Positions 19,798-31,855 of a stretch of 64,000 bases of DNA are shown in pieces. Position 1 is the stretch's first letter, and each line of letters opens with the position of its first letter. Both the position numbers and the translations under genes were made by a program. Under the pieces are notes generated by a model. That model was not told the DNA's origin, made no database searches, and saw only the letters and a program-made list of their open reading frames with translations. Source of the DNA: Bacteroidales bacterium (GTDB taxonomy: Bacteria; Bacteroidota; Bacteroidia; Bacteroidales; UBA1715); NCBI GenBank assembly GCA_017516865.1, contig JAFXAU010000009.1, forward strand, positions 1-64,000. Direction: 5' to 3'.

Positions 19798-21051
19798 TTA
19801 TTCTTTGTTTTCTTTTTTTGCTCGTAATCGGTAGAATTGTAAAAGAGAAAAAATATCCATGCCAGTTTTGTCGAAAAGTTCTTTAGCAGCAGTGTCGATA
19901 GGAATTTTCTGAAACCCGTTGCCGCACGAAAAATTCAGGAATTTATATACCTGCAATCCGTTGAACCAACGGAAAAACCGCTTACAAAACTGTTTGTGTG
20001 TTTTGGTATTATGTTGTATCTCAATAATTTTTTGCTCAAAATCGGAAGATGGCAAAAACTTTTTTAAGCAAGTATGAAGCGATTCGTATGTGTCCCGAAT
20101 TTCTTGTGGCGAGGCATTTTGCAATGATTTGGCTCGCACAAAGAAATCTTGAAGAATGTCGAAGCATTCTGTGGAATATGTCATCAATTCTTGTCTGCTT
20201 TGTTTGAGTTCGGCAATTGTCGTTCCTGTTCCAAAAGGAACTCTATCTGATTGCCGCGACGATGGATAGACCGTGGTAGTGTTTATTTCGCCAAAACATT
20301 CGGCAGGAAACAGTTTTTGCAGAAAATAAAAATCCTCGCCTGCCTGTCGTTTATTCATTCCCCCTTGGCGGCAATAGGTTTTCGCCCGCACCGAAAAGCA
20401 TGAGCCTATGGTATGAAATGCATACGGAAACCCAATGCGTTTTAGTTGCTCCACATAATATCTTAAATACAATTCGTATTGCGCAATTGCTTGATATTGT
20501 TCTTGTTGCAGGTCGCCAGTTAGAGGGTGTTCAAAATAAATATTAGCAGCTGAACATTGTGGATTATTTCGATAAAACGTTTCTATTTCTATAAAATAAT
20601 TCTTGTCCACAACGGTATCTGCGTCGCATGAGACAATTACACCTTCGGAATTGTCGATTTGGGCAAAACGGTGAACTGCCTCGTCCATTGCGAGTTTACG
20701 GGCATATCCAACACCCGCTTGTTTCTTGGAAATATTGAATGCCGCAAGTGGCAAAAATGAAATTGTTCCCGTCGACTTTGCGGAACTGTATTCACAAAGT
20801 TGTTCGAAAGTTTTTTGATTGAACTGTTTGATGCTGTTATCGGCTGTTTCGCTGTGATTCACCACAATGATGACTTCTATGTGGCAACTCGGCATTGTGC
20901 AGTTTAATAGATAATTAAGCGTTTGTAGAATGTCGGGTTCGTGGTAACAAGGAATTGTGACAATTATGCCAAGATTTCTGTCGACAGGTTTCTGTGATTG
21001 TTGTTCAAATGCTTCAAAACGGGTGAAATATGTCTCAAAAATCGGATTCAT
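19798..21051 (-). CDS. Family 2 glycosyltransferase
   Basis: 417 residues, GT-A fold. The N-terminus has 'IVTIPCYHEPDILQTLNYLL', the nucleotide-sugar/metal DxD site is 'SCDADTVVD', and a later 'AGEDFYFLQKL' resembles the acceptor ED motif. There is no membrane helix, so it probably works at the inner face of the membrane or in the cytosol on a lipid- or protein-linked glycan. The N-terminus overlaps the end of tatD by 17 bp, so the pair is translationally linked. The sugar and acceptor are unknown. Confidence 0.85.
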   Translation of the reverse strand: MNPIFETYFTRFEAFEQQSQKPVDRNLGIIVTIPCYHEPDILQTLNYLLNCTMPSCHIEVIIVVNHSETADNSIKQFNQKTFEQLCEYSSAKSTGTISFLPLAAFNISKKQAGVGYARKLAMDEAVHRFAQIDNSEGVIVSCDADTVVDKNYFIEIETFYRNNPQCSAANIYFEHPLTGDLQQEQYQAIAQYELYLRYYVEQLKRIGFPYAFHTIGSCFSVRAKTYCRQGGMNKRQAGEDFYFLQKLFPAECFGEINTTTVYPSSRQSDRVPFGTGTTIAELKQSRQELMTYSTECFDILQDFFVRAKSLQNASPQEIRDTYESLHTCLKKFLPSSDFEQKIIEIQHNTKTHKQFCKRFFRWFNGLQVYKFLNFSCGNGFQKIPIDTAAKELFDKTGMDIFSLLQFYRLRAKKENKE

Positions 21052-21817
21052 TCAGATTGAAAATTTTAAGAGCATTTTCCGTTGTAAAGTCCGCAACTTC
21101 TTCTGTCCGACAGTTCAGTATTTCCGCCATTTTTTCGGCAACAAGCGTCACGTAGCCTGGTTCGTTTCGTTTGCCACGGTGCGGGACAGGAGTCAAATAT
21201 GGATCGTCGGTTTCCAAGACGATTTTCTCACGGGGAATTGCTTTCACTATTTCGTCAAGATGCGATGTCTTGAATGTAAGTACCCCGCCAATGCCAATGT
21301 GGAAGCCCATGTCAATTACTTTGAAAGCCTCTTCTTTCGAACCCGAAAAACAATGAAAAATCCCCTTGAATTCTTGTGTTGGAACGGTGCGCAACGCTTT
21401 GTACGTCTCGTTGAATGCCTTTCTGACGTGTGTCACAATTGGTAAATTTCTTTCTTGTGCTACAATTACTTGTTGCGTGAAAACTTCAATTTGTTCTTCT
21501 AAAAATATTTTGTCCCAATATAAATCAATGCCGATTTCACCAATGCCGACGATTTTTCTCTGTGGCAGTTCCGCAAAAAAGGTGTCCAATTCTTTTTGAA
21601 ACCCTTCGCCAACCGAAGTCGGGTGAACGCCCAACATAGGGAAACACGTCTGCGGATATTGTTGAGCGACCGAAAACATTCGCTCCCGCGACGTAGAATC
21701 AATGTCGGGAAGAATAAGTTTCGTAACCCCCGAATCAATCGCTCGTTGAATAACCTCGTCGCGGTCGTCGTCGAAAGCTTCATCGTATACGTGACTATGG
21801 GTATTGACTATGTACAT
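21035..21817 (-). CDS. tatD: TatD family metal-dependent hydrolase
   Basis: A 260-residue TIM-barrel DNase-type hydrolase. The metal-binding 'THSHVYDEAF' is at the N-terminus, 'GEIGID' is in the middle, and 'ETDDPYLTPVPHRGKRNEP' is near the end. TatD/YcfH proteins have 3'-5' exonuclease and D-aminoacyl-tRNA-related activities in different hosts. The ATG at 21817 starts the conserved N-terminus; a TATTTTTG box at 21846-21853 lies 28 bp upstream. Confidence 0.92.
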   Translation of the reverse strand: MYIVNTHSHVYDEAFDDDRDEVIQRAIDSGVTKLILPDIDSTSRERMFSVAQQYPQTCFPMLGVHPTSVGEGFQKELDTFFAELPQRKIVGIGEIGIDLYWDKIFLEEQIEVFTQQVIVAQERNLPIVTHVRKAFNETYKALRTVPTQEFKGIFHCFSGSKEEAFKVIDMGFHIGIGGVLTFKTSHLDEIVKAIPREKIVLETDDPYLTPVPHRGKRNEPGYVTLVAEKMAEILNCRTEEVADFTTENALKIFNLNESDF

Positions 21818-21845
21818 TGGGGTATAAATTTTATGTTTACAAGAA

Positions 21846-21853
21846 CAAAAATA
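21846..21853 (-). promoter_or_regulatory. Promoter -7 box for tatD
   Basis: The minus strand reads TATTTTTG, matching TAnnTTTG, 28 bp before the tatD ATG. Confidence 0.55.
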
Positions 21854-21939
21854 CAAAAGCTATCTTGTTTTTCAAGAATTATCTAACTATTTGTTGAACA
21901 AATTTGTAAGGTCGCGCCACGCCACGTTTCTACAGAATT

Positions 21940-21976
21940 ACTGTACCAGATTCGCATTGAAAAAAGTACCACTTTT
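21940..21976. repeat. Island repeat, copy 1 (divergent)
   Basis: actgtaccagattcgc...gtaccactttt matches the copies at 24400 and 25963 with a few changes. It holds two gtacc half-sites about 28 bp apart. It lies at the boundary between the core gene tatD and the accessory genes. A degenerate palindromic half repeat (cgtttctac) lies just before it. The rest of 21818-22041 shows no gene. Confidence 0.7.
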
Positions 21977-22041
21977 GTTACGTGCCTCTGTCATTCCATT
22001 TTCTACGGCAGAAAACAAGATTTACACCTTTCACATGAAAT

Positions 22042-23220
22042 TTATATGAAATAGTCCGCTTCCTCAAACTGTGGTTCGATGACGATTTTGCCTGTCGTGT
22101 CTATGTATCCCCATTTGCGGTGTTCGTAGTCACCAAACATTACGGGAGCCAAACCACTTTCATTAAAATAAGAAGCAGAATCAAATTGCGGGGAAATGCG
22201 TACATGTCCCGTATCGCCCATATACCCCCACTTTTCACCAATTTTTACAGGTGTGAGACCGTTTCCTTCAAAACCTATGTCGTCAAATTGAGGTTCGATA
22301 ATTATTTTTCCTGTTCTATCTATAAAACCCCATTTCCCATCCGATTCCATTTTTATGGGTGCGAGTCCATTTCCCCTAAAACAAACTGCTTCTTCAAACA
22401 AAGGGTTGATTACCATCTTCCCCGACGTGTCAATATAACCGCACTTGTGCCCTTCATCAGCAAGTACCACTCGGGCAAGGCCATAACAATAGTCATCAAC
22501 AGAATAAAATTGCGGTTCAACGACAATTTTTCCCGCAGTGTCAACATATCCCCATTTACCACCTATATTCACGGGAGCAAGACCGTCTTTAACAAAATAT
22601 TCCACATTTTCAAATTGTGGTTCGCACACAAACTTACCCGAAGCATTGATAAAACCCCACTTGTCCTCCACTTCCACACGCGCAATACCATATTGGAAAT
22701 CATCCGCCCATTCAAATTGAGGTTGTATTACGAAATTCCCGGTAGTGTCAATGTAACCCCATTTGTTGTTTCTTCCGTCACCGACATTTACCGCGGCGAG
22801 ACCATTATCGGCAAAACCACGTGCTTCGTTAAAAAGAGGTTTTATAACTATTTTCCCCGAGGTATCAATGTAACCATATTTGCAATCCGAAATACTTCCA
22901 AATCCAACAGGCGCAAGATCAAACGAAAAATCCCATGGCTTATCGTAAACATCGCGAGCGGCTATATACCGAGGTTCTATAATGAATTTTCCAGTACAAT
23001 CAATCCACCCAATTTTCCCGTCATTTTCCACAAGAGCAAGACCACTTTCGTTGAAAGCATAGGCACAATCAAACTGCGGTTGTACAACAATTTTTCCTGT
23101 CGTATCTATATATCCCCATTTCTCTGCTATTTGCACCGCAGCCAACGGTTTTGTTTTCGGAGAAATTGAAAGGCTTTCATTACGGGTAAAACCAAAGATT
23201 TTGTTAATGAGATTATTCAT
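22042..23220 (-). CDS. WG-repeat protein with ten repeats
   Basis: 392 residues. Ten units of about 35-40 residues, each with a core like KWGYIDTTGKIVIEPQF followed by a 'GLAPV' segment, run from residue ~28 to the end. There is no signal peptide or membrane helix, so it is cytoplasmic as encoded. WG/KWG repeats form beta structures thought to bind other proteins; the partner is unknown. The gene starts 21 bp after the Fic stop on the same strand, so it is almost surely co-transcribed with it. One unit (repeat 9) reads GYMGDTG in place of GYIDTTG. Confidence 0.85.
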   Translation of the reverse strand: MNNLINKIFGFTRNESLSISPKTKPLAAVQIAEKWGYIDTTGKIVVQPQFDCAYAFNESGLALVENDGKIGWIDCTGKFIIEPRYIAARDVYDKPWDFSFDLAPVGFGSISDCKYGYIDTSGKIVIKPLFNEARGFADNGLAAVNVGDGRNNKWGYIDTTGNFVIQPQFEWADDFQYGIARVEVEDKWGFINASGKFVCEPQFENVEYFVKDGLAPVNIGGKWGYVDTAGKIVVEPQFYSVDDYCYGLARVVLADEGHKCGYIDTSGKMVINPLFEEAVCFRGNGLAPIKMESDGKWGFIDRTGKIIIEPQFDDIGFEGNGLTPVKIGEKWGYMGDTGHVRISPQFDSASYFNESGLAPVMFGDYEHRKWGYIDTTGKIVIEPQFEEADYFI

Positions 23221-23241
23221 ATATTGTACATTTTAACTATT

Positions 23242-24117
23242 TCATATTTTAAAATATTCCATCACCCTTTTGTATTCATCTTGTGCAGTCAGGCAAGTGT
23301 CGTGCAAATAGCCGTTTATCCGTCCCCAGTTTTGCAGACCACGATAATAGAACATTCGCAGTTCTTCCGTTATAATAAATGGCACGATGCCATTTTGCAG
23401 ACATAGCCAAAAGATGAGAAGCCGTCCCACTCGACCATTTCCGTCCTGAAACGGATGTATGCGTTCAAACTGCACGTGAAAATCAAGAATGTCGTCGAAC
23501 GTGACGTGTTTGTTTGCGTTGTATTCGGCAAGCAATGTTTTCATTCGTTTATGCACGTCGTGCGGCTGTACGGTTTCTTCTCCGCCAACTTCGTTTGCCA
23601 GCCGCTTGTAGTCGCCCACGGCAAACCACGACTTTTGGCTGTCGGATGTGTTGTTTTTCAGGATCGAATGCAGTTGTTTCACGTGTGGTTCCGTTATTTT
23701 TTCGGTAGCGTGAACAATAATGTAATCAATGCAACGGAAATGGTTGACCGTTTCCAAAATATCGTCAATACGAGTATTTTCGGCAGTTATGCCGAGAGTG
23801 TTTGTCTCGAAAATATAGCGTGTCTGTTCTTTCGTAAGACGGCTACCTTCAATATGATTGGAATTATACGTTAAATCTATCTGCGTACGATGATAGATGC
23901 CGCCTTTCAGACCGCTTTCCTTTTCTTGACGCAAACGATTGAGCAAAGGTGATATTTTCAGTTTCGTCTTTTGTGGCAAAACTGCATCGGCGGGAATATT
24001 CCACGTTTTCCCCGTGAGGAACGCACCCTCTATCTTACCAACAGCACAGTAATTACGGGCTGTTCGTTCGCTAACGCCATACTTTTCGGCAAACTGACTG
24101 ACAGAAATAAATTCCAT
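23242..24117 (-). CDS. Fic family protein with N-terminal DNA-binding domain
   Basis: 291 residues. Residues ~1-48 form a winged/MerR-type helix-turn-helix ('SVSQFAEKYGVSERTARNYC'). The class II inhibitory motif S86-NHIE-G91 follows, and the Fic active site HPFQDGNGRVGR is complete at 221-232. So it should transfer AMP, or a related group, from a nucleotide to a target hydroxyl and be held in check by its own Glu90. The intrinsic DNA-binding domain and the repeats at 24120-24180 just upstream suggest autoregulation. The WG-repeat gene follows after 21 bp and could encode a target or partner. Confidence 0.9.
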   Translation of the reverse strand: MEFISVSQFAEKYGVSERTARNYCAVGKIEGAFLTGKTWNIPADAVLPQKTKLKISPLLNRLRQEKESGLKGGIYHRTQIDLTYNSNHIEGSRLTKEQTRYIFETNTLGITAENTRIDDILETVNHFRCIDYIIVHATEKITEPHVKQLHSILKNNTSDSQKSWFAVGDYKRLANEVGGEETVQPHDVHKRMKTLLAEYNANKHVTFDDILDFHVQFERIHPFQDGNGRVGRLLIFWLCLQNGIVPFIITEELRMFYYRGLQNWGRINGYLHDTCLTAQDEYKRVMEYFKI

Positions 24118-24119
24118 AC

Positions 24120-24180
24120 TATCGGCAAGTTTTTATCAAAATTTGCCGTAAAACTAACAAAATTTGCCGTTATCGGCAAG
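24120..24180 (-). promoter_or_regulatory. Operator-like repeat array upstream of the Fic gene
   Basis: aaaatttgccgt occurs at 24138-24149 and 24159-24170, exactly 21 bp apart (two helical turns). tatcggcaag occurs at 24120-24129 and 24171-24180. All share the core TTGCCG or its complement CGGCAA. The array begins 3 bp from the Fic start codon, so a bound protein would block expression. Confidence 0.65.
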
Positions 24181-24324
24181 GAAATCATCAAAATTCCGAA
24201 AAATGTTTGTCAGCATGAAATTTATTCACACACAGAGTTCCAAACTTTTTTTGAGTTTTGCTGAAGAATGCCCGAGCCAAACATTCTGACTACCATAGCG
24301 ACACAAAAGTCTGGTTTGGTAACT

Positions 24325-24396
24325 TTATATTTCCTTCTGCGCAAATGCACTTACGCCCATTACCACGCATACAACTAAAACAAATAGTTTCTTCAT
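24325..24396 (-). pseudogene. Orphan signal-peptide stub (23 aa)
   Basis: The minus strand encodes MKKLFVLVVCVVMGVSAFAQKEI and then a stop. This is a complete Sec signal peptide with an AFAQ cleavage site and no mature protein. It looks like the start of a lost secreted-protein gene, cut after residue 23. Repeat copy 2 lies directly upstream. The other parts of the 373-bp gap 24118-24490 hold the Fic operator and the repeat; 24181-24324 shows nothing I can name. Confidence 0.6.
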
Positions 24397-24399
24397 ACG

Positions 24400-24450
24400 T
24401 ATTCTCATTCAAAACTGTACCAGATTCGCAGTGAAAAGTGTACCACTTTT
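24400..24450. repeat. Island repeat, copy 2
   Basis: tattctcattcaaaactgtaccag...gtgtaccactttt is almost identical to copy 3 (25963-26011) over ~48 bp. A short shared element acggaactgcgt-tatgg lies at 24461-24478 here and at 25863-25880 before copy 3. Confidence 0.8.
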
Positions 24451-24490
24451 TGCAGATATCACGGAACTGCGTCTATGGATTTGTAGGCAA

Positions 24491-25858
24491 TTATTGAATA
24501 ATTTCCCAATGACCGTTTTTGTCAGAACCGACACGTCGTATTTTGTCTAATCTGACCAAAGTTGCCAAGGCTCTTGTAACTGTAGCTCGAGATTTTCCTA
24601 TTTGCACTGCAATTTGTTCTTTTGACAATTTGGGCGATTTTGATATTGTTTCTAATACAAGTTTTACAGTATCATTTACAGGCTCATTTACAGGCTCATT
24701 TACAGGCTCATTTTTCTCCTCATTCTCTATCTCAAACGCAAATGGTATTGTTACACGCAAGAAGAAATCCAAAAATTCAAAAGCGTTTTTCCCGTATCGT
24801 TTTGTTACCAATGGTATTCCAAAACCTGTTTGCTCCATTAAATCTAAACGAATGAAAATCTTTGCAAGTTCTTCGTTAACGGGTTTGGAAACACCTCTGT
24901 AAAAATCTTCTTTTGAAAGATTGTGAGGTAGTCCGCCCGTTGAAATTATCTCCAAACGGTCGGTATAAATATAGATGGCAGGTGGAGTTCCGTCTGCCCA
25001 ATTGTTGTGCAGACAGGCATTGAACCACACTTCGCGAAAAGCAACATTGTCGAAAAGGGGCATATCGTTACGGACACCTTTCGTAAAACTGGTATGCGTT
25101 TCGTTTATCACATCGGAACAATACTCAAATGCCTGTTTCATCGCAACCACAAGACACTTTTCTCCATATTCGTTCCGAATGGCTATTCCATCTGCCTTTT
25201 CACGTCCTTTGAAGCGGACAACTTTGATAGAAACCTCATTCTTGTCTGCCAAAAGTTCTGCCATTTTATTGTATTTGCCGTCGTGGGTGAGCAGATGGAA
25301 GTTCTCGGCAAACGTCTTTTCGTTTATCGTATATCCTTTTTCGGTAAGCAAAAGTTTCAGATATTGGAAAGTTGGATTCTTTATTCCACTTTCTATTTCG
25401 GTAATCTTTACCTGCGAATCAAGATATTTATTGTGGACTTGATTTATTTGGGCTTCGGTCATTGCACGGCTTGTTGACCCTACACGAAGAAAGCATCCCT
25501 GTGCACTTCTGCCATATTTCTTAATGTAATAAAGTCCTTCGCCTTTTTGAATCTTTATTTCTATAATATGTTTCTGCTCAATGAATTTTGTACCGAGTTC
25601 AATGAACGCACGTGGGTCGGGCAGAATTTGGTTCTCAATGATGTCGGCAATTTTTTTGAGTGAATCATCAAGGTTTTCCACACCGCAAACGCTTCCGTCA
25701 TCGTTCACGCCTATGTAAACCGTGCCACCGTCGGTATTAAGGAATGCCACGATTTCTTTAGGTATAGCATCAGTATATCGTTGCTTCAGTTCTGTCCGTT
25801 CGGTTTCTACAAAATTCACTTTGAAATACTTTGTTTTATTTTGGGTAAAGTTAGACAT
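24491..25858 (-). CDS. AlbA_2/Schlafen-like ATPase regulator with C-terminal winged helix
   Basis: 455 residues. The N-terminus (~15-125) is an AlbA_2/Schlafen nucleic-acid-binding domain ('IVAFLNTDGGTVYIGVNDDG'). Residues ~270-385 are a GHKL-type ATPase part ('FREVWFNACLHNNW', 'LEIISTGGLP', 'QTGFGIPLV'). A tandem NEPV spacer (three 12-bp repeats at 24679-24714) follows, and then a helix-turn-helix with 'SKEQIAVQIGKSRATVTRALATL'. Such proteins are called transcriptional regulators or RecG-like; many occur near defence genes. Three GTTCACA iterons lie upstream (25893-25928). Confidence 0.85.
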   Translation of the reverse strand: MSNFTQNKTKYFKVNFVETERTELKQRYTDAIPKEIVAFLNTDGGTVYIGVNDDGSVCGVENLDDSLKKIADIIENQILPDPRAFIELGTKFIEQKHIIEIKIQKGEGLYYIKKYGRSAQGCFLRVGSTSRAMTEAQINQVHNKYLDSQVKITEIESGIKNPTFQYLKLLLTEKGYTINEKTFAENFHLLTHDGKYNKMAELLADKNEVSIKVVRFKGREKADGIAIRNEYGEKCLVVAMKQAFEYCSDVINETHTSFTKGVRNDMPLFDNVAFREVWFNACLHNNWADGTPPAIYIYTDRLEIISTGGLPHNLSKEDFYRGVSKPVNEELAKIFIRLDLMEQTGFGIPLVTKRYGKNAFEFLDFFLRVTIPFAFEIENEEKNEPVNEPVNEPVNDTVKLVLETISKSPKLSKEQIAVQIGKSRATVTRALATLVRLDKIRRVGSDKNGHWEIIQ

Positions 25859-25892
25859 TTTTACGGAACTGCGTTTATGGCACGCTAAATAA

Positions 25893-25928
25893 GTTCACAA
25901 AAAGGTTCACATAAGAGTTCACAAAAGA
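25893..25928 (-). promoter_or_regulatory. Three 12-bp iterons upstream of the AlbA_2 gene
   Basis: GTTCACA begins at 25893, 25905 and 25917, an exact 12-bp period (gttcacaaaaag, gttcacataaga, gttcacaaaaga). They are 35-70 bp upstream of the AlbA_2 start and may be the site of its own winged helix. Confidence 0.55.
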
Positions 25929-25962
25929 TAATTGATTGCACTCAACAAAATCTATCTGTATC

Positions 25963-26011
25963 TATTCTCATTCAAAACTGTACCAGATTCGCAGTGAAAA
26001 GTGTACCACTT
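25963..26011. repeat. Island repeat, copy 3
   Basis: The third copy of the element at 21940 and 24400, in the same orientation. With copy 2 it brackets the AlbA_2 gene as 1.5-kb-spaced direct repeats. No transposase lies next to it. The remaining bases 26012-26102 show no gene. Confidence 0.8.
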
Positions 26012-26102
26012 GGGGACTGTTTTGATGAACTTTATGATTAGTGGAATGTTAGGCAGCCAACCATAGTGGATAAGTCAAGACTCGAGGAAATAATTGTTGG
26101 TT

Positions 26103-29100
26103 TTAGTTATAATAACAGGACTTACACTCAGGTCTATCGAAACATATTCCGTAAGAACTTTTACCACATTGGTGACAATAATTCTCTGAATAATATTCGT
26201 AGCCGCCATACTTATTCCATGTGTAATAACATTTTTTACAATAGGGAATTTGTGGATTATAAGAAATATCCTTTCCACATCGTATGCAATACCCGTCTTG
26301 TTTGCGTATTTTTATTCTCTGAATTGTTTGTGGTGCAGGCTTCTCCTCCTGTTTGACTTCATTGTCTTCTAAATCATCAAAATTGAAGGACTTTTGTGTA
26401 TCAACAATCTTTTTTGAATTAATTATAATTTTTCGTAGTTGTTCATATGATTTCACAAAAGTATTTGAAATCATTAGGAATTGTAACCCTCTCTCATGAC
26501 AGAGTTGCCTTTTTTTTGTGTCGGCGATTTCCCGATTCCGATCTCCAAAATGTTCTCCTCCGTTTATTTCGATGACAATCTTAGGTATCAACTTCCCCAA
26601 CTTCTTTTCATATAATACACAGTCAAATTCACTTTTTTGTTTGCATAAGTCATCATCATCTGAAAATATCTTACTATATGCAACATTTCGTTTTACCTCA
26701 AATGAAGTATGTACGGAACAAAAATGTGATATTGTGGTATAAAATTCATTTTCATATATGCTACCATTTGATTTTCCAATTTCTATTTTGACAGATTCAT
26801 TCATTGGAATAGAAATCTTTCCATTGCTTTTCACATAATTCACCAAATCCAATATATCGGAAGATTTGTTACCAGAACGTATTTTTAAGATGTCTTCGTC
26901 GTAAGCAATGACAAATTTATTTTTAGCCCTTGTCATTGCCACATTTATTAGTTCGGTATTATTTTTTAACCAATCAAATGTTCTTTGACTTGTCCTTTGG
27001 GATAATGCTGTTGAAAGTATTATTGTGGATTTTTCTCCCCCTTGCATTGCATGTACTGTACAACACTCAACATCAGATAGCTTATTTTGTTTTAGCAACG
27101 AATTAATTAACTCTTTTTGGTTCACGAATGGAGTAATAATTGTAGCTTCATGAATGTTATTTCTTTTAAGATAGTTAATTATAGCCAATCCTTCATCTAT
27201 TGCTGAGTTTTTATCAAGAGTATTTGTGTTTTTTACCGGAATAGAGATTAAATCTCCTATTTTCTTTTCAACCTCCGAAAGCTTTAAGCACTTGTAGTAT
27301 TTTTGATTTGAAAAATCAATTATTTTTTTTGCACATCTGTAATGATACCTTAATGTGATTTTGGGTGAAATAGTATCATGCTCTCGCATTATTTCCAGCA
27401 CAGAATGATGTTTGTAATCGTAATCTTTAGGAATTGAAAATTTTTTTCTCAAAGTCTCGTTTATGGAATCCTCTAATACAACGATTGGTTTGAGTTGAAG
27501 TGTGTCTCCAACCATTAATAAAGAATTTGCTTTAGTTATTGGAATTAAAGAGTGTGCAACATTGCATTGTCCTGCTTCATCCATTATTACCAAATCAAAC
27601 ATGTATTGTGGAGAGCCGAGTCGTTGTGCAGAAATGTTAGTTGTAAATATAATTGGAAAGACTTTAACGAATCGCTTCATATTTTCGTCAATTGACAACC
27701 ATTTATTAAATTCTGCTACACGTTCATTTTCATCTTCTAAATAACAGATATTTTTTAAGTCCTGATACGATGGCGTTTGTAATGTTTTTATGTACTTAAT
27801 TGAGGAATAATATAGTAGTTGTTTTAAGTAATAATCCTCACTCAATGGGGTAAATAACTTCCATAGTTCTCTATTATTCACTTCTGGATTCTTCCATATT
27901 TCATTACTTAATACATCAATTGTTTTGCGAATGTTATCAGAAAATTGATTTTTTTCTCCGTTGTTTTTTTTTAAGAGTTTTTGAGCACATTTTAAATCTT
28001 CTTCAAGTTGAAGATGGTATTCTTGCGACTTCAATATTTGCTGTAATCGTTCATTCTTTTCATCGGTCGTTTCCTTAATTTTATTCATTTTTGTTTCATC
28101 AGGACTATTTTCTGTTTGAAATTCAAATAGTTTTCTTAATTCTAAAACAGCCAATTTTACTTGTTCAATATTACCCAATCTGAGAAATGGGAATCTGATT
28201 TTTTCTCCTTTATAATCAATAGAAAGTTTTTCAATAATTCCATTTACAGGTTTATTGTTAGCAGAACATACAAGAATGGTTTTGTTGTTATAGAAACCAT
28301 TCAAAACCACATTCAATATTGTTTGCGTTTTCCCTGTGCCTGGAGGTCCTTGTACAAAAGTCACGGGTTGTTTCATCGCATTGTAAAGAACACGTGTTTG
28401 ATCCACATTTATCTTTTCGTCTGCAATAATTATATGAGGTTCTTTTCTTCTTTTATCGTTGGATGTTATTCTTCCAAATAATGATTTTAAAGGAACATTT
28501 AATTTGTCGGATTGTGCTCGTTCAATAATTTCATTATAGGTTGGTTTTAGATCTATGTTCAAATCTCGTTCCAACAACATTATATTGGGACGAGTATTAA
28601 TGATTTCTCCTTTCCTGAAATTAGATTCCAACATGGCTATACTGTGTTCCTCGTCATCTTGAAATTGTTCTATAAACTCATCAACATTCATTTCTGTGTA
28701 TTGAAATAATGTCGATTTGCAATCCCCAATAAGTTTGTTTTTTTCGTATACTCTGTGTATAAACGATTTATTGAATCGCAATGTATCATCTATGTTCAAT
28801 GTACTTTCAATTGGATTAAATCTAACATTATAAAAGCAAACAATATAATGTTTTTTCCCAATGTCAATAGATAATTTAGATAACGCCAGTTCCTCGTATT
28901 GTTTTCTCTCATTGTCAAAGATTTGCTTGTAACAGATTTTCAGAACATCTTCTTTCTGCTCTTTATTCAATATAATTTTTTTATGTTGCATTAAGTATGA
29001 TACATCTATACCCGCTATCATACCCATGTCACAGTCTTTTTGATAAGGATCATTATCAAAATAATTACAGGTTTCATAATAATCAAGCAAATATTTTACA

Positions 29101-29438
29101 TCAGTATCATAGTCCAACCAAGAATATTTGCTCATATTTTCCGTAATCTTTTTTAACAAAGACTCTGGAACTTCATAATTTGAGAAATCAATTATTTTTG
29201 CGGTTTGTATCTTATGTAAGAAAAGTCCATCTCCGTTTACAAGTGACGCTTCGTCATTTATAGATGGATTGTAAATGAAACACTTTAAACGTGGTTCATG
29301 CTCGTCAAACTTTATATCTTGTATTGCTATCCAATACTTTGTTTCTGCATCTTCGGGTTGCTTCTTGTAGGTTATATAAACCCATTTGGCTTCACGAATT
29401 GCTTGTATTAATGTCTTGCATACTTTATTATCAATCAT
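26103..29438 (-). CDS. SF1 (UPF1-like) helicase fused to a restriction-like nuclease and zinc ribbons
   Basis: 1111 residues. An N-terminal region of ~340 residues has no domain I recognise. An SF1 helicase core follows, with Walker A GPPGTGKT at 364-371, 'VIMDEAGQ', 'MVGDTLQLKPIV', 'HAMQGGEKSTII' and 'NVAMTRAKNKFV'. Then a DUF2726-like PD-(D/E)xK nuclease segment (Asp in 'SEFDCVL', 'IVIEINGGEHF'). The last ~60 residues hold two zinc-ribbon Cys sets (CIRCG, CKKC; CHQCG, CKSC). This layout resembles single-protein anti-phage helicase-nucleases. The start at 29438 is preferred; 29474 is possible. A TATATTTG box at 29442-29449 would leave almost no leader, so the start or the box is uncertain. 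Confidence 0.85.
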   Translation of the reverse strand: MIDNKVCKTLIQAIREAKWVYITYKKQPEDAETKYWIAIQDIKFDEHEPRLKCFIYNPSINDEASLVNGDGLFLHKIQTAKIIDFSNYEVPESLLKKITENMSKYSWLDYDTDVKYLLDYYETCNYFDNDPYQKDCDMGMIAGIDVSYLMQHKKIILNKEQKEDVLKICYKQIFDNERKQYEELALSKLSIDIGKKHYIVCFYNVRFNPIESTLNIDDTLRFNKSFIHRVYEKNKLIGDCKSTLFQYTEMNVDEFIEQFQDDEEHSIAMLESNFRKGEIINTRPNIMLLERDLNIDLKPTYNEIIERAQSDKLNVPLKSLFGRITSNDKRRKEPHIIIADEKINVDQTRVLYNAMKQPVTFVQGPPGTGKTQTILNVVLNGFYNNKTILVCSANNKPVNGIIEKLSIDYKGEKIRFPFLRLGNIEQVKLAVLELRKLFEFQTENSPDETKMNKIKETTDEKNERLQQILKSQEYHLQLEEDLKCAQKLLKKNNGEKNQFSDNIRKTIDVLSNEIWKNPEVNNRELWKLFTPLSEDYYLKQLLYYSSIKYIKTLQTPSYQDLKNICYLEDENERVAEFNKWLSIDENMKRFVKVFPIIFTTNISAQRLGSPQYMFDLVIMDEAGQCNVAHSLIPITKANSLLMVGDTLQLKPIVVLEDSINETLRKKFSIPKDYDYKHHSVLEIMREHDTISPKITLRYHYRCAKKIIDFSNQKYYKCLKLSEVEKKIGDLISIPVKNTNTLDKNSAIDEGLAIINYLKRNNIHEATIITPFVNQKELINSLLKQNKLSDVECCTVHAMQGGEKSTIILSTALSQRTSQRTFDWLKNNTELINVAMTRAKNKFVIAYDEDILKIRSGNKSSDILDLVNYVKSNGKISIPMNESVKIEIGKSNGSIYENEFYTTISHFCSVHTSFEVKRNVAYSKIFSDDDDLCKQKSEFDCVLYEKKLGKLIPKIVIEINGGEHFGDRNREIADTKKRQLCHERGLQFLMISNTFVKSYEQLRKIIINSKKIVDTQKSFNFDDLEDNEVKQEEKPAPQTIQRIKIRKQDGYCIRCGKDISYNPQIPYCKKCYYTWNKYGGYEYYSENYCHQCGKSSYGICFDRPECKSCYYN

Positions 29439-29560
29439 AGACAAATATAAATATTCACAAATATAACGAAACATCTGATATGTTGTCTATGCAAAAAAGT
29501 GCATTTTCAATAAGAAAAAACATTAGAATCTTCTTCTCAAGAAAATCCATTTTAAGATTC

Positions 29561-29610
29561 CCCTAAACTTTCGCCAACCTCTTCCCCCTCCTTAGTTTCC
29601 TGCATTTTCA
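29561..29610. repeat. Left arm of a direct repeat flanking the GNAT/antitoxin pair
   Basis: About 48 bp ending in tttcctgcattttcag is similar (roughly 70-75% by eye) to 30393-30442. On the minus strand both can be read as the end of a protein with LKMQETK and then a stop. It may be the left footprint of a module insertion. Confidence 0.45.
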
Positions 29611-30159
29611 GGATAATTTTGCTATATTCATTAAATCATAATACATTGCTACAGTGTCACCTTTGCTCTTTTCATAACGGATACGTTCTTCATTTCCCAT
29701 AAATTCAAAACCATTTTTTTGATAAAAAGGAACGGCTGACAAATAAGCATCAACCGTTATAAAACGGCAACCTGTTTTGTTGTTTTCCAACATCCAGTGT
29801 TTTATGTAATCAATAACCAACGAACCCCAGTGATTACTTGTATTCTGAAAATCTTTATGTACGGCAAAACGACCTATTTTTACGGCAGGATAATCTTTTC
29901 GGTGCTTTGAATGGGGAAAAATTGATTTGATTTTTCTCCAAAATCCATTAGTGGTTTCTATAGCAGTGATTTTATCGTTCGACAAACTAAAGAATAGAAT
30001 TGTTTTATCCTGTTTTTCAATAAAATACGTTACAGAAAGTAATTGTTTTTGATAATCAAACGAATCTATCAACAAAAAAGAATTTAAATCATCGTCACCA
30101 CAATCAAACTGACGGAAAATATGATTTTCCGTCAATCTTGTAAATATGTCAAAATCCAT
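29608..30159 (-). CDS. GNAT family toxin-like acetyltransferase
   Basis: 183 residues. The N-terminal 'FRQFDCGDDDLNSFL' and the late 'FYQKNGFEF' are typical of TacT/AtaT-type GNAT toxins, which acetylate aminoacyl-tRNA; 'FAVHKDFQNTSNHWGSLV' is in the acetyl-CoA region, although the usual Q/RxxGxG/A is degenerate (QNTSNHWG). It starts on the stop codon of a 54-residue upstream gene (TAATG overlap), the normal order antitoxin then toxin. The weak CoA motif leaves activity open. Confidence 0.8.
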   Translation of the reverse strand: MDFDIFTRLTENHIFRQFDCGDDDLNSFLLIDSFDYQKQLLSVTYFIEKQDKTILFFSLSNDKITAIETTNGFWRKIKSIFPHSKHRKDYPAVKIGRFAVHKDFQNTSNHWGSLVIDYIKHWMLENNKTGCRFITVDAYLSAVPFYQKNGFEFMGNEERIRYEKSKGDTVAMYYDLMNIAKLS

Positions 30160-30323
30160 TAGTGTTGGGAACTTAAAAGAGATTGTAACTTCAAAATGCT
30201 TTTTTCTATGCGACTGCGTTCGGCAATACGTGCATTCAAGTCCTTACATTTTTGGGAATTCTCAATAAAAGCGGAAGCATCCTTTCCGTACAATATTGGG
30301 GTATTTCTAATTGGTTTAGCCAT
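30159..30323 (-). CDS. Small antitoxin-like protein (54 aa)
   Basis: The minus-strand frame begins MAKPIRNTPILYGKDASAF and ends KLQSLLSSQH. It is basic and helical in the second half ('DLNARIAERSRIEKSILKLQ'). Its stop TAA shares one base with the ATG of the GNAT gene. 'RNTPILYGKDASAFI' resembles the N-terminal beta-strand plus helix of small antitoxins paired with GNAT toxins. An inverted repeat and a -7 box lie just upstream. Short length, coupling and operator together make a toxin-antitoxin role likely, though not proven. Confidence 0.75.
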   Translation of the reverse strand: MAKPIRNTPILYGKDASAFIENSQKCKDLNARIAERSRIEKSILKLQSLLSSQH

Positions 30324-30324
30324 A

Positions 30325-30359
30325 AATTGTTATTTTTGTGTTATGCAAAGATAACAATT
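30325..30359 (-). promoter_or_regulatory. Promoter and operator of the GNAT/antitoxin pair
   Basis: A perfect 9-bp inverted repeat, aattgttat (30325-30333) and ataacaatt (30351-30359), encloses a -7 box TATCTTTG (minus strand, 30346-30353). A dimeric antitoxin bound here would cover the transcription start. Confidence 0.65.
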
Positions 30360-30392
30360 TTCCTATAAAGAAGGATTAAAGAGAGAAACTAT

Positions 30393-30500
30393 TTCTAAAC
30401 CCCTCGCCAAAATCCCCCCGTCTTTGTTTCCTGCATTTTCAGTATGGCGAACCATTTCTTGCCCAGGTTCTTGAGCGAGTCCCAACGTGCCGTCGTACGA
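30393..30500 (-). pseudogene. Possible gene remnant and right arm of the repeat flanking the GNAT pair
   Basis: In one minus-strand frame the sequence reads W-D-S-L-K-N-L-G-K-K-W-F-A-I-L-K-M-Q-E-T-K and ends in a stop near 30402. The LKMQETK end also occurs at 29561-29610. I do not recognise the source protein. The 220-bp gap 30324-30543 holds only this and the operator. Confidence 0.35.
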
Positions 30501-30543
30501 TACGCGATCCTTCTTTTTAAAATAAGAATTTCGAGGGGAAATA

Positions 30544-31242
30544 TTATTCTTCCTCTTCATCAAGGTTGATGGTGTCGTCCTTTCCCGCCACAAGAAGTAC
30601 GAACTCGCCTTTGGGCTGTTTTTCCTGAAAATGTTTTATGACGGTAGGAATGCTGCCACGGACAACTTCCTGATATATTTTTGAGATTTCGCGAACGACG
30701 GTCACATTGCGTTCGCCGATAAATTCTTGAATTTGCGTCAAAGTTTTTACGACTCTATGGGGCGATTCGTAGAAAATGATTGTGCGTGTCTCGTCTTTTA
30801 AAGCAAGAAGCCGTGTTTGACGCCCTTTTTTGTGCGGAAGAAAACCTTCGAAGCAGAATCTATCGGTAGTGAAACCGCTCATTACGAGAGCTGGCACGAA
30901 TGCCGTGGCTCCTGGAAGACATTCCACCTCAATGTCGTTTTCAATACAGTTTTTGGTAATCAAATATCCTGGGTCGGAAATTGACGGCGTTCCCGCGTCG
31001 GAAATCAAAGCCGTGAGCGAATTTTCACGGATAATGTCGAGCGTTTTGCCAAGTGTGGCATGCTCGTTAAATTTATGGTGGGCAATCATTTTTGTCTCAA
31101 TGCCGAAATGTTTCAGAAGATTCCCCGAAGTGCGGGTATCTTCGGCAAGAATCAAATCTGCTTGTTTCAGAACTTCGACGGCTCTGAATGTCATATCTTG
31201 CAAATTTCCGACAGGTGTCGGTACGACCACTAACTTTCCCAT
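30544..31242 (-). CDS. rsmI: 16S rRNA (cytidine(1402)-2'-O)-methyltransferase
   Basis: RsmI methylates the ribose of C1402 in 16S rRNA using SAM. The tetrapyrrole-methylase fold is clear: 'VVPTPVGNLQDMTFRAVEVL', 'EDTRTSGNLLKHF', 'SDAGTPSISDPGYL' and 'FEGFLPHK'. I chose the ATG at 31242 (MGKLVVV). The 232-residue length is at the short end, and the C-terminal extra domain of longer RsmI is lacking. It starts 1 bp after the stop of the upstream 203-residue gene. Confidence 0.93.
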   Translation of the reverse strand: MGKLVVVPTPVGNLQDMTFRAVEVLKQADLILAEDTRTSGNLLKHFGIETKMIAHHKFNEHATLGKTLDIIRENSLTALISDAGTPSISDPGYLITKNCIENDIEVECLPGATAFVPALVMSGFTTDRFCFEGFLPHKKGRQTRLLALKDETRTIIFYESPHRVVKTLTQIQEFIGERNVTVVREISKIYQEVVRGSIPTVIKHFQEKQPKGEFVLLVAGKDDTINLDEEEE

Positions 31243-31243
31243 A

Positions 31244-31855
31244 TTACAAATATCTGCGTTCCACAATGGCAAGAAAATCAGTCACGTCGGAGCTTTCGTA
31301 GTCCAAATCGAAAGTGTTTTTCAAATATGAAACAGCTTCTTCGTATGAATTGAGATGATTCAAAAGCGTGACGGTGTTTTCGAACAATTCCTGATTTTTC
31401 GAGAATAAAGCCGCCCGAAAACGGATGCGGTCGTTCGGACCGATTGCACTCATAATGTCTGAAATCGGTTTTTTGCCAAGTATGCTGTTGAGGTCTTGCC
31501 GAGGCTTTGCGGCAAACAAATCTTGCGGAGTTTCTTTGGGCTCTTGCTGAATCGGTGCTGATATGGGTGTTTCTATTCTTACAGCCGTATTTTCGGGCTG
31601 GATTTGAACTTGTGGCTCATCAACTATAGGTTTTTCAACGACCGTTGGCTGTTCCGCAACAGAAATTGTCGGAGTAGGTTGTTTTACCTGTTCACAAGCA
31701 GTATTTGCAGAAAAACAGAGAGAGTCATACGCAGAACGAAGTTTTTGTAAAATTATGTCACGTTCAATGGTTGGAATCTCTTGCAGTGATTGATATTTGC
31801 CGATGAATGAACTAATTTCGTCGAGCAGTTTTTTGATGTCAGAATAGCTTGCCAT
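31244..31855 (-). CDS. Conserved hypothetical protein (203 aa) upstream of rsmI
   Basis: A helical N-terminus, a Pro/Glu/Gln/Val-rich linker (~75-125) and a conserved-looking C-terminal domain with 'LNSILGKKPISDIMSAIGPNDRIRFRAALF'. I have seen similar proteins in Bacteroidetes, without a function. The ATG at 31855 is chosen because a TATTTTTG box lies at 31872-31879. It is translationally linked to rsmI by a 1-bp gap and divergent from mlaE. Confidence 0.75.
   Translation of the reverse strand: MASYSDIKKLLDEISSFIGKYQSLQEIPTIERDIILQKLRSAYDSLCFSANTACEQVKQPTPTISVAEQPTVVEKPIVDEPQVQIQPENTAVRIETPISAPIQQEPKETPQDLFAAKPRQDLNSILGKKPISDIMSAIGPNDRIRFRAALFSKNQELFENTVTLLNHLNSYEEAVSYLKNTFDLDYESSDVTDFLAIVERRYL

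Follow-up and report, generated by a model that had tools for sequence, protein, structure and literature searches.

The window considered here, the whole 64,000-nucleotide stretch of Bacteroidales DNA, carries at 26103..29474, on the minus strand, an uninterrupted open reading frame of 1123 codons plus a stop codon that encodes a helicase-nuclease protein. A sequence-only reading, which left the strand unstated, had ended the gene at 29438; that position is Met13 of the longer frame, and it is the likelier translation start because homologues begin 'MIDK...' there. Residues are numbered here along the long frame, and are thus 12 higher than in that reading (its Lys370 is Lys382). In a comparison with a 67% homologue (L003), pN lies far below pS in each domain, and the frame is therefore no chance ORF; all of its domains are under purifying selection. 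The gene is real, intact and horizontally acquired.

It lies within an insertion of about 8.7 kb (21857..30543) between rsmI (30547-31272) and tatD (21038-21856), which are directly adjacent in all six of the other congeners. GC content is 0.30-0.33 across the gene versus 0.40-0.44 outside the insert. Also on the minus strand, the insertion holds a protein with SLFN_AlbA_2, HATPase_c_4 and HTH domains by Pfam (24491..25858), a Fic protein matching the PADLOC candidate family PDC-S04 at E=1e-106 (23242..24117), a WG-repeat protein (22042..23220) and a GNAT acetyltransferase (29608..30159); the scan of its genes showed neither an integrase nor a transposase. The acetyltransferase gene follows a small ORF of like orientation (ATG near 30323), and 29608-30330 is arranged like a GNAT toxin-antitoxin pair.

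The protein was originally described as a one-gene fusion of SF1 helicase, nuclease and zinc ribbons, and that description holds: Pfam AAA_11 and AAA_12, a DUF2726 match of the nuclease segment, cysteine ribbons and the low pN relative to pS all agree with it. Residues 346-890 (26805..28439, minus strand) form a UPF1/Sen1/IGHMBP2-type SF1 helicase, as judged by Pfam (AAA_11 at 355-666, E=1e-34; AAA_12 at 698-857, E=2e-18), motifs and fold search. The Walker A sequence GPPGTGKT (376-383), DEAGQ (632-636) and TRAK (848-851) are invariant or nearly so in five homologues, as are the GD..QL, YHYR and QG motifs, and with motifs I, II, III and VI intact the domain belongs among the UPF1-like SF1 helicases. 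A mostly helical insertion (~436-605) separates Walker A from Walker B. The top solved relatives by sequence are IGHMBP2, UPF1/NAM7, Sen1 and DNA2, and the fold search with the full model returned SETX, Sen1, IGHMBP2, UPF1 and DNA2 (E 1e-11 to 1e-6).

The helicase is followed by a predicted DUF2726/Vsr-like PD-(D/E)xK nuclease (residues 900-1022; 26409..26777, minus strand), recognized by a profile match and conserved acids. DUF2726 scores 26.6 bits for the isolated segment against a cut-off of 24.7, and 22.3, slightly below it, in the whole protein; the homologue L006 scores 33.3 bits and adds a weak MTES_1575 match. Six homologues retain E908, D951, E969-x-[N/D]-G-x-E-H975, D985 and K988. 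With the segment above its profile cut-off and the acidic core kept, the domain appears to belong to the DUF2726/Vsr-like nucleases, and the weak full-length AlphaFold model (pLDDT 50.8) places its helix and strands only in a plausible order. In the PDB, the nuclease profile matches 3r3p best (E=0.004), a Vsr-like DNA homing endonuclease described as a 'mobile intron protein'.

The protein ends in a double zinc ribbon (residues 1061-1120; 26115..26294, minus strand), whose cysteines, read from the sequence, are C1063/C1066/C1079/C1082 and C1100/C1103/C1117/C1120. With the last 71 residues as query, the ribbon turned up at the end of other proteins in the window's own and related genomes, PLD-type nucleases among them: one (L019) is a PLDc_2 protein by Pfam, and another has matches to PLD-type PADLOC profiles. 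Within the helicase family the ribbon is present in the window protein (P0001), L003 and L005 and missing in L004, L006, L007 and L008. Since PLD proteins carry it and four homologous loci do without it, we regard the ribbon as an exchangeable add-on rather than a family-defining feature, so that the two terminal ribbons noted at the outset are present here but are not family-wide. The other proteins that end in it include small stand-alone ones of Bacteroidales genomes (L019 553-1713, L020 1372-2250, L015 1483-2196), PLD-like at least in the case of L019, so the ribbon looks like a module that nucleases have in common. A search of plasmids with the ribbon segment found none.

The N-terminal ~340 residues had been left unassigned, a verdict that a fold search and a profile-profile test overturn for residues ~14-105 (29160..29435, minus strand), which form a WYL-like domain of an alpha helix and a five-stranded barrel in the AlphaFold model. 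The model of residues 1-345, built on six sequences, has a pLDDT of 66, with most of the barrel at 72-84. Its best 22 PDB fold matches in Foldseek are all to the WYL proteins CapW, PafBC, BrxR and DriD; the matches are modest, with E values of 0.003-0.06, probability mostly 1.00 and a query model of pLDDT 66. The fold search with the full-length model (pLDDT 50.8) also returned CapW and BrxR. In the alignment, residues ~14-99 resemble a WYL domain, with the helix 'LIQAIREAKWVYITY' followed by strands. When the N-terminal alignment was compared by hhalign with a WYL alignment made from E. coli YfjR and its relatives, the score was 27.1 at a probability of 17%; none of 200 column-shuffled controls attained that score (best 20.4), a reversed control gave 10.7, and the N-terminal part was the top-scoring of all windows of the protein. 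The register of this match sets the N-terminal helix on the helix preceding the WYL-annotated C-terminal half of YfjR. There was no Pfam WYL match in the N-terminus, where N-terminal pieces at E<=10 gave noise only, a sequence search of the N-terminal profile against PDB found no match, and conservation does not extend to the W-Y-L tripeptide. Because the hhalign probability is low and the tripeptide unconserved, we term the N-terminus WYL-like rather than a member of the WYL family. The domain is a probable DNA-stress sensor. Residues 106-345 (28440..29159, minus strand) are a linker that the model shows as helices plus a beta meander; they probably correspond to the 1B/stalk region that UPF1-like helicases have.

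WYL domains are best known as switches that sense ssDNA or nucleotides and control transcription factors, both in phage defence and in the DNA damage response. In PafBC, for example, ssDNA acts on the WYL domains to activate the protein (PMC11804915). The regulators CapW, BrxR, DriD and PafBC share the fold of residues ~14-105, but they are transcription factors. Some thermophile SF1 Pif1 helicases also bear a WYL domain (PMC9964779), although it is C-terminal there, unaccompanied by a nuclease, whereas here it is N-terminal. The only literature found to combine WYL, UPF1 and nuclease was the CoCoNuT paper, where WYL occurs in the reference list only (PMC11090510).

Among known defence systems, the PADLOC profiles that come nearest belong to the Mokosh, PDC-S37 and Hhe helicases. 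The top match is MkoC of Mokosh type II (E=8e-47), which joins a related helicase to a PLD nuclease (PMC11672841) and is likewise a single gene with the helicase N-terminal to the nuclease. We consider it very improbable that the window protein is a divergent MkoC: the match covers the helicase part of the profile only (508-973 of 1136), and while a COG1112-type helicase is present, the PLD domain is absent from Pfam and PADLOC scans, its place being taken by the Vsr/DUF2726 nuclease. Of the published architectures found, that of CoCoNuT type III-B comes closest (PMC11090510): its UPF1-like helicase has a Sul7s-like domain at the N-terminus, is joined to a Vsr-like nuclease and is encoded alongside McrBC-type genes. 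Its CnuH-Vsr shares with the window protein the UPF1-like helicase, the helical insertion after Walker A and the direct fusion to a Vsr-like PD-(D/E)xK domain. In contrast, the gene described here stands alone, with no CnuB/McrB, CnuC/McrC or CnuA, and its product has a WYL-like N-terminus and a double ribbon; neither McrB/CnuB nor McrC/CnuC was found among the nine flanking genes scanned or, by inspection, in the listed flanks of homologues, and the Sul7s-like wHTH is missing, so we do not assign it to CoCoNuT III-B despite the helicase-Vsr fusion. Hhe, which likewise unites a helicase and a Vsr-like nuclease in one anti-phage protein, is about 1900 aa long with DUF4011; that architecture is not found here, and helicase stretches alone match (44 bits). 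The original view that the protein matches no named system therefore stands, as Mokosh, CoCoNuT III-B and Hhe each fail a tested defining feature, and the protein is most likely close to known helicase-nuclease types yet distinct from them.

The gene is rare and patchily distributed. At the genus level 2 of 7 genomes have a full-length homologue, and at the family level 3 of 14; samples of wider groups gave 3 of 393 genomes for the order (the window's own and two others) and the window's own only among 395 for the phylum, as did a search of 295 genomes of the class with the N-terminal profile. Where it does occur, the surroundings differ. In G008 it lies in an insertion of ~5 kb whose flanking genes are ~13 bp apart in G010, and in G013 it lies between carB and guaA, a pair ~7 bp apart in G012, so that with the rsmI-tatD site an empty counterpart was found at all three testable loci. 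The rluA-side site that the helicase insert fills in G008 is itself variable, as G007 has PIN-domain and weak UDG-like genes there (L049 10807-15585). The copy in G272 holds one in-frame TGA, and its next gene is a Schlafen-group-3 helicase matching the candidate PDC-S41 at E=1e-285; the other homologues have no defence-type neighbours and stand alone among housekeeping genes. Defence-gene neighbourhoods, which the sequence-only reading had proposed to look for, are thus found for two copies only, that of the window (Fic, Schlafen-AlbA) and that of G272 (PDC-S41). That reading had also taken a location mainly beside housekeeping genes as an argument against defence, and to the letter this is where the homologues lie; but the three testable copies are insertions, and since the flanking pair is adjacent in relatives in all three cases, the gene is an inserted one rather than a member of a housekeeping operon. 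Taken together, its rarity, horizontal insertion, AT-richness and lack of an accompanying mobility gene are in keeping with cargo that serves defence.

The same observations bear on whether the protein is instead an accessory DNA-repair or recombination enzyme, a bacterial DNA2-like helicase-nuclease with no phage role. DNA2 has the same kinds of activity, DNA-damage responses are regulated by WYL domains, and copies of the gene adjoin housekeeping genes. Nevertheless, the gene is missing in five of seven congeners and nearly the whole order, occupies varied sites and is AT-rich, unlike core repair genes, and we regard a repair enzyme as unlikely.

Searches of viral sequence gave distant helicase matches only for IMG/VR viral contigs, against the family alignment, and fragments only for phage records, the best being the faecal 'phage' scaffold MT835661.1 (L056 6123-9401). 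This scaffold has a tyrosine recombinase beside a partial AAA_12-DUF2726 ORF, and genes related to the helicase-DUF2726 fusion may accordingly travel on integrative elements.

Two kinds of repeat border the genes of the insert. A 49-bp direct repeat (25963..26011, minus strand) lies 92 bp past the gene, with an identical copy at 24400-24448 across the Schlafen gene and a diverged copy at 21926-21974 at the insert edge, and a 31-bp repeat (29584..29614, minus strand; second copy 30415-30445) bounds the gene unit on its 5' side. The latter is the exact breakpoint of the homologue on a sheep-rumen Bacteroidales contig (L005): from the 31-bp repeat to the stop codon at 26103 the two are 99.1% identical in DNA, and outside that unit they have nothing in common except repeat copies, part of the 49-bp repeat being found also past the next ORF in L005. 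Beyond the insert, only one close repeat copy was found in the genome, and two congeners have a single copy apiece. With so few copies there and in the genus, an integron-like attC array is unsupported, and the repeats rather resemble scars of recombination or remnants of IS elements. Both kinds sit in gaps between accessory genes, and we suggest that units are swapped through the repeats without a recombinase gene. One could also imagine a selfish, element-borne protein whose Vsr-like nuclease helps to spread the gene unit, much as a homing endonuclease would, given that the best PDB match of the nuclease profile is the mobile-intron protein 3r3p, that the unit shared by L005 consists precisely of the gene and the 31-bp repeat, and that the insert holds no other mobility gene. 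However, the gene occupies three different sites with no target gene interrupted, and it encodes a large protein with a motor and a sensor-like domain alongside other cargo genes; we think selfish spread quite improbable.

We favour, at roughly even odds (a probability of about 0.5), a candidate single-gene defence effector gained as cargo, in which the WYL-like sensor, helicase and nuclease would act together. Because most copies are without defence neighbours, what speaks for defence is the set of enzymatic domains and a distribution like that of cargo genes; these fit the earlier proposal of an anti-phage protein, to which the neighbourhoods lend only partial support. In such a system, the WYL-like domain would sense ssDNA or another phage replication product. 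The SF1 helicase would load on the exposed strand and move along it, and this movement would release or feed the Vsr-like nuclease, which would cut phage, and perhaps also host, nucleic acid. The ribbon may add substrate affinity while being dispensable for the family. In Hachiman, a sensor helicase restrains a nuclease until damaged DNA is met (PMC12278908), a works-like analogy only, as HamAB comprises two proteins and the HamA nuclease is DUF1837. More tentatively, the N-terminal WYL-type ssDNA sensor might directly gate the UPF1-like helicase and Vsr-like nuclease, giving a hitherto undescribed one-protein immunity that unites sensing, translocation and cutting in a single polypeptide without transcriptional control. 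If true, a WYL-type sensor could act straight on an effector enzyme, and not only on transcription factors, and the helicase-nuclease gene offers a clear one-gene system for testing damage sensing via ssDNA.

The main rival to the favoured cargo-effector reading concerns the substrate, which may be RNA: a UPF1-like motor would track RNA, the Vsr-like domain would cleave it, and phage (and host) translation would stop, as has been proposed for type II/III CoCoNuTs. The best solved relatives of the helicase are indeed RNA helicases (SETX-ssRNA, Sen1, IGHMBP2 and UPF1), and CoCoNuT III-B has the same fusion, in a family predicted to target RNA (PMC11090510). On the other hand, a helicase-nuclease that acts on DNA, DNA2, is among the well-scoring relatives too, ssDNA is what characterised WYL domains bind, and the nearest PDB relative of the nuclease is 3r3p, a Vsr-like DNA homing endonuclease, so that an RNA-directed defence strikes us as rather unlikely.

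The domain order with terminal ribbons had been put forward as matching no named system, and here the claim has to be narrowed, since the pairing of helicase with DUF2726/Vsr is already present in CoCoNuT III-B and in an E. coli family (WP_236479692.1, 'AAA domain-containing protein'), and the ribbon is exchangeable. The E. coli family occurs in 646 of 5426 complete genomes (12%), and its 893-aa protein likewise has an SF1 helicase and then DUF2726 (48.6 bits), with 25% identity over 757 aligned positions spanning both domains; it differs in being without a ribbon and in having a shorter N-terminus with no detectable similarity. Helicase-DUF2726 fusions are thus already widespread, and the window protein is a further variant of this kind with a WYL-like front end. 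It helps to sort the SF1 helicase-nuclease fusions (Mokosh, CoCoNuT III-B, Hhe and the E. coli DUF2726 family) according to the sensors, nucleases and ribbons that they can exchange. In the two genomes inspected, the E. coli gene (L055 7551-10232) is chromosomal, lies in IS-rich accessory regions and is followed by PAPS reductase and IbrB-like genes.
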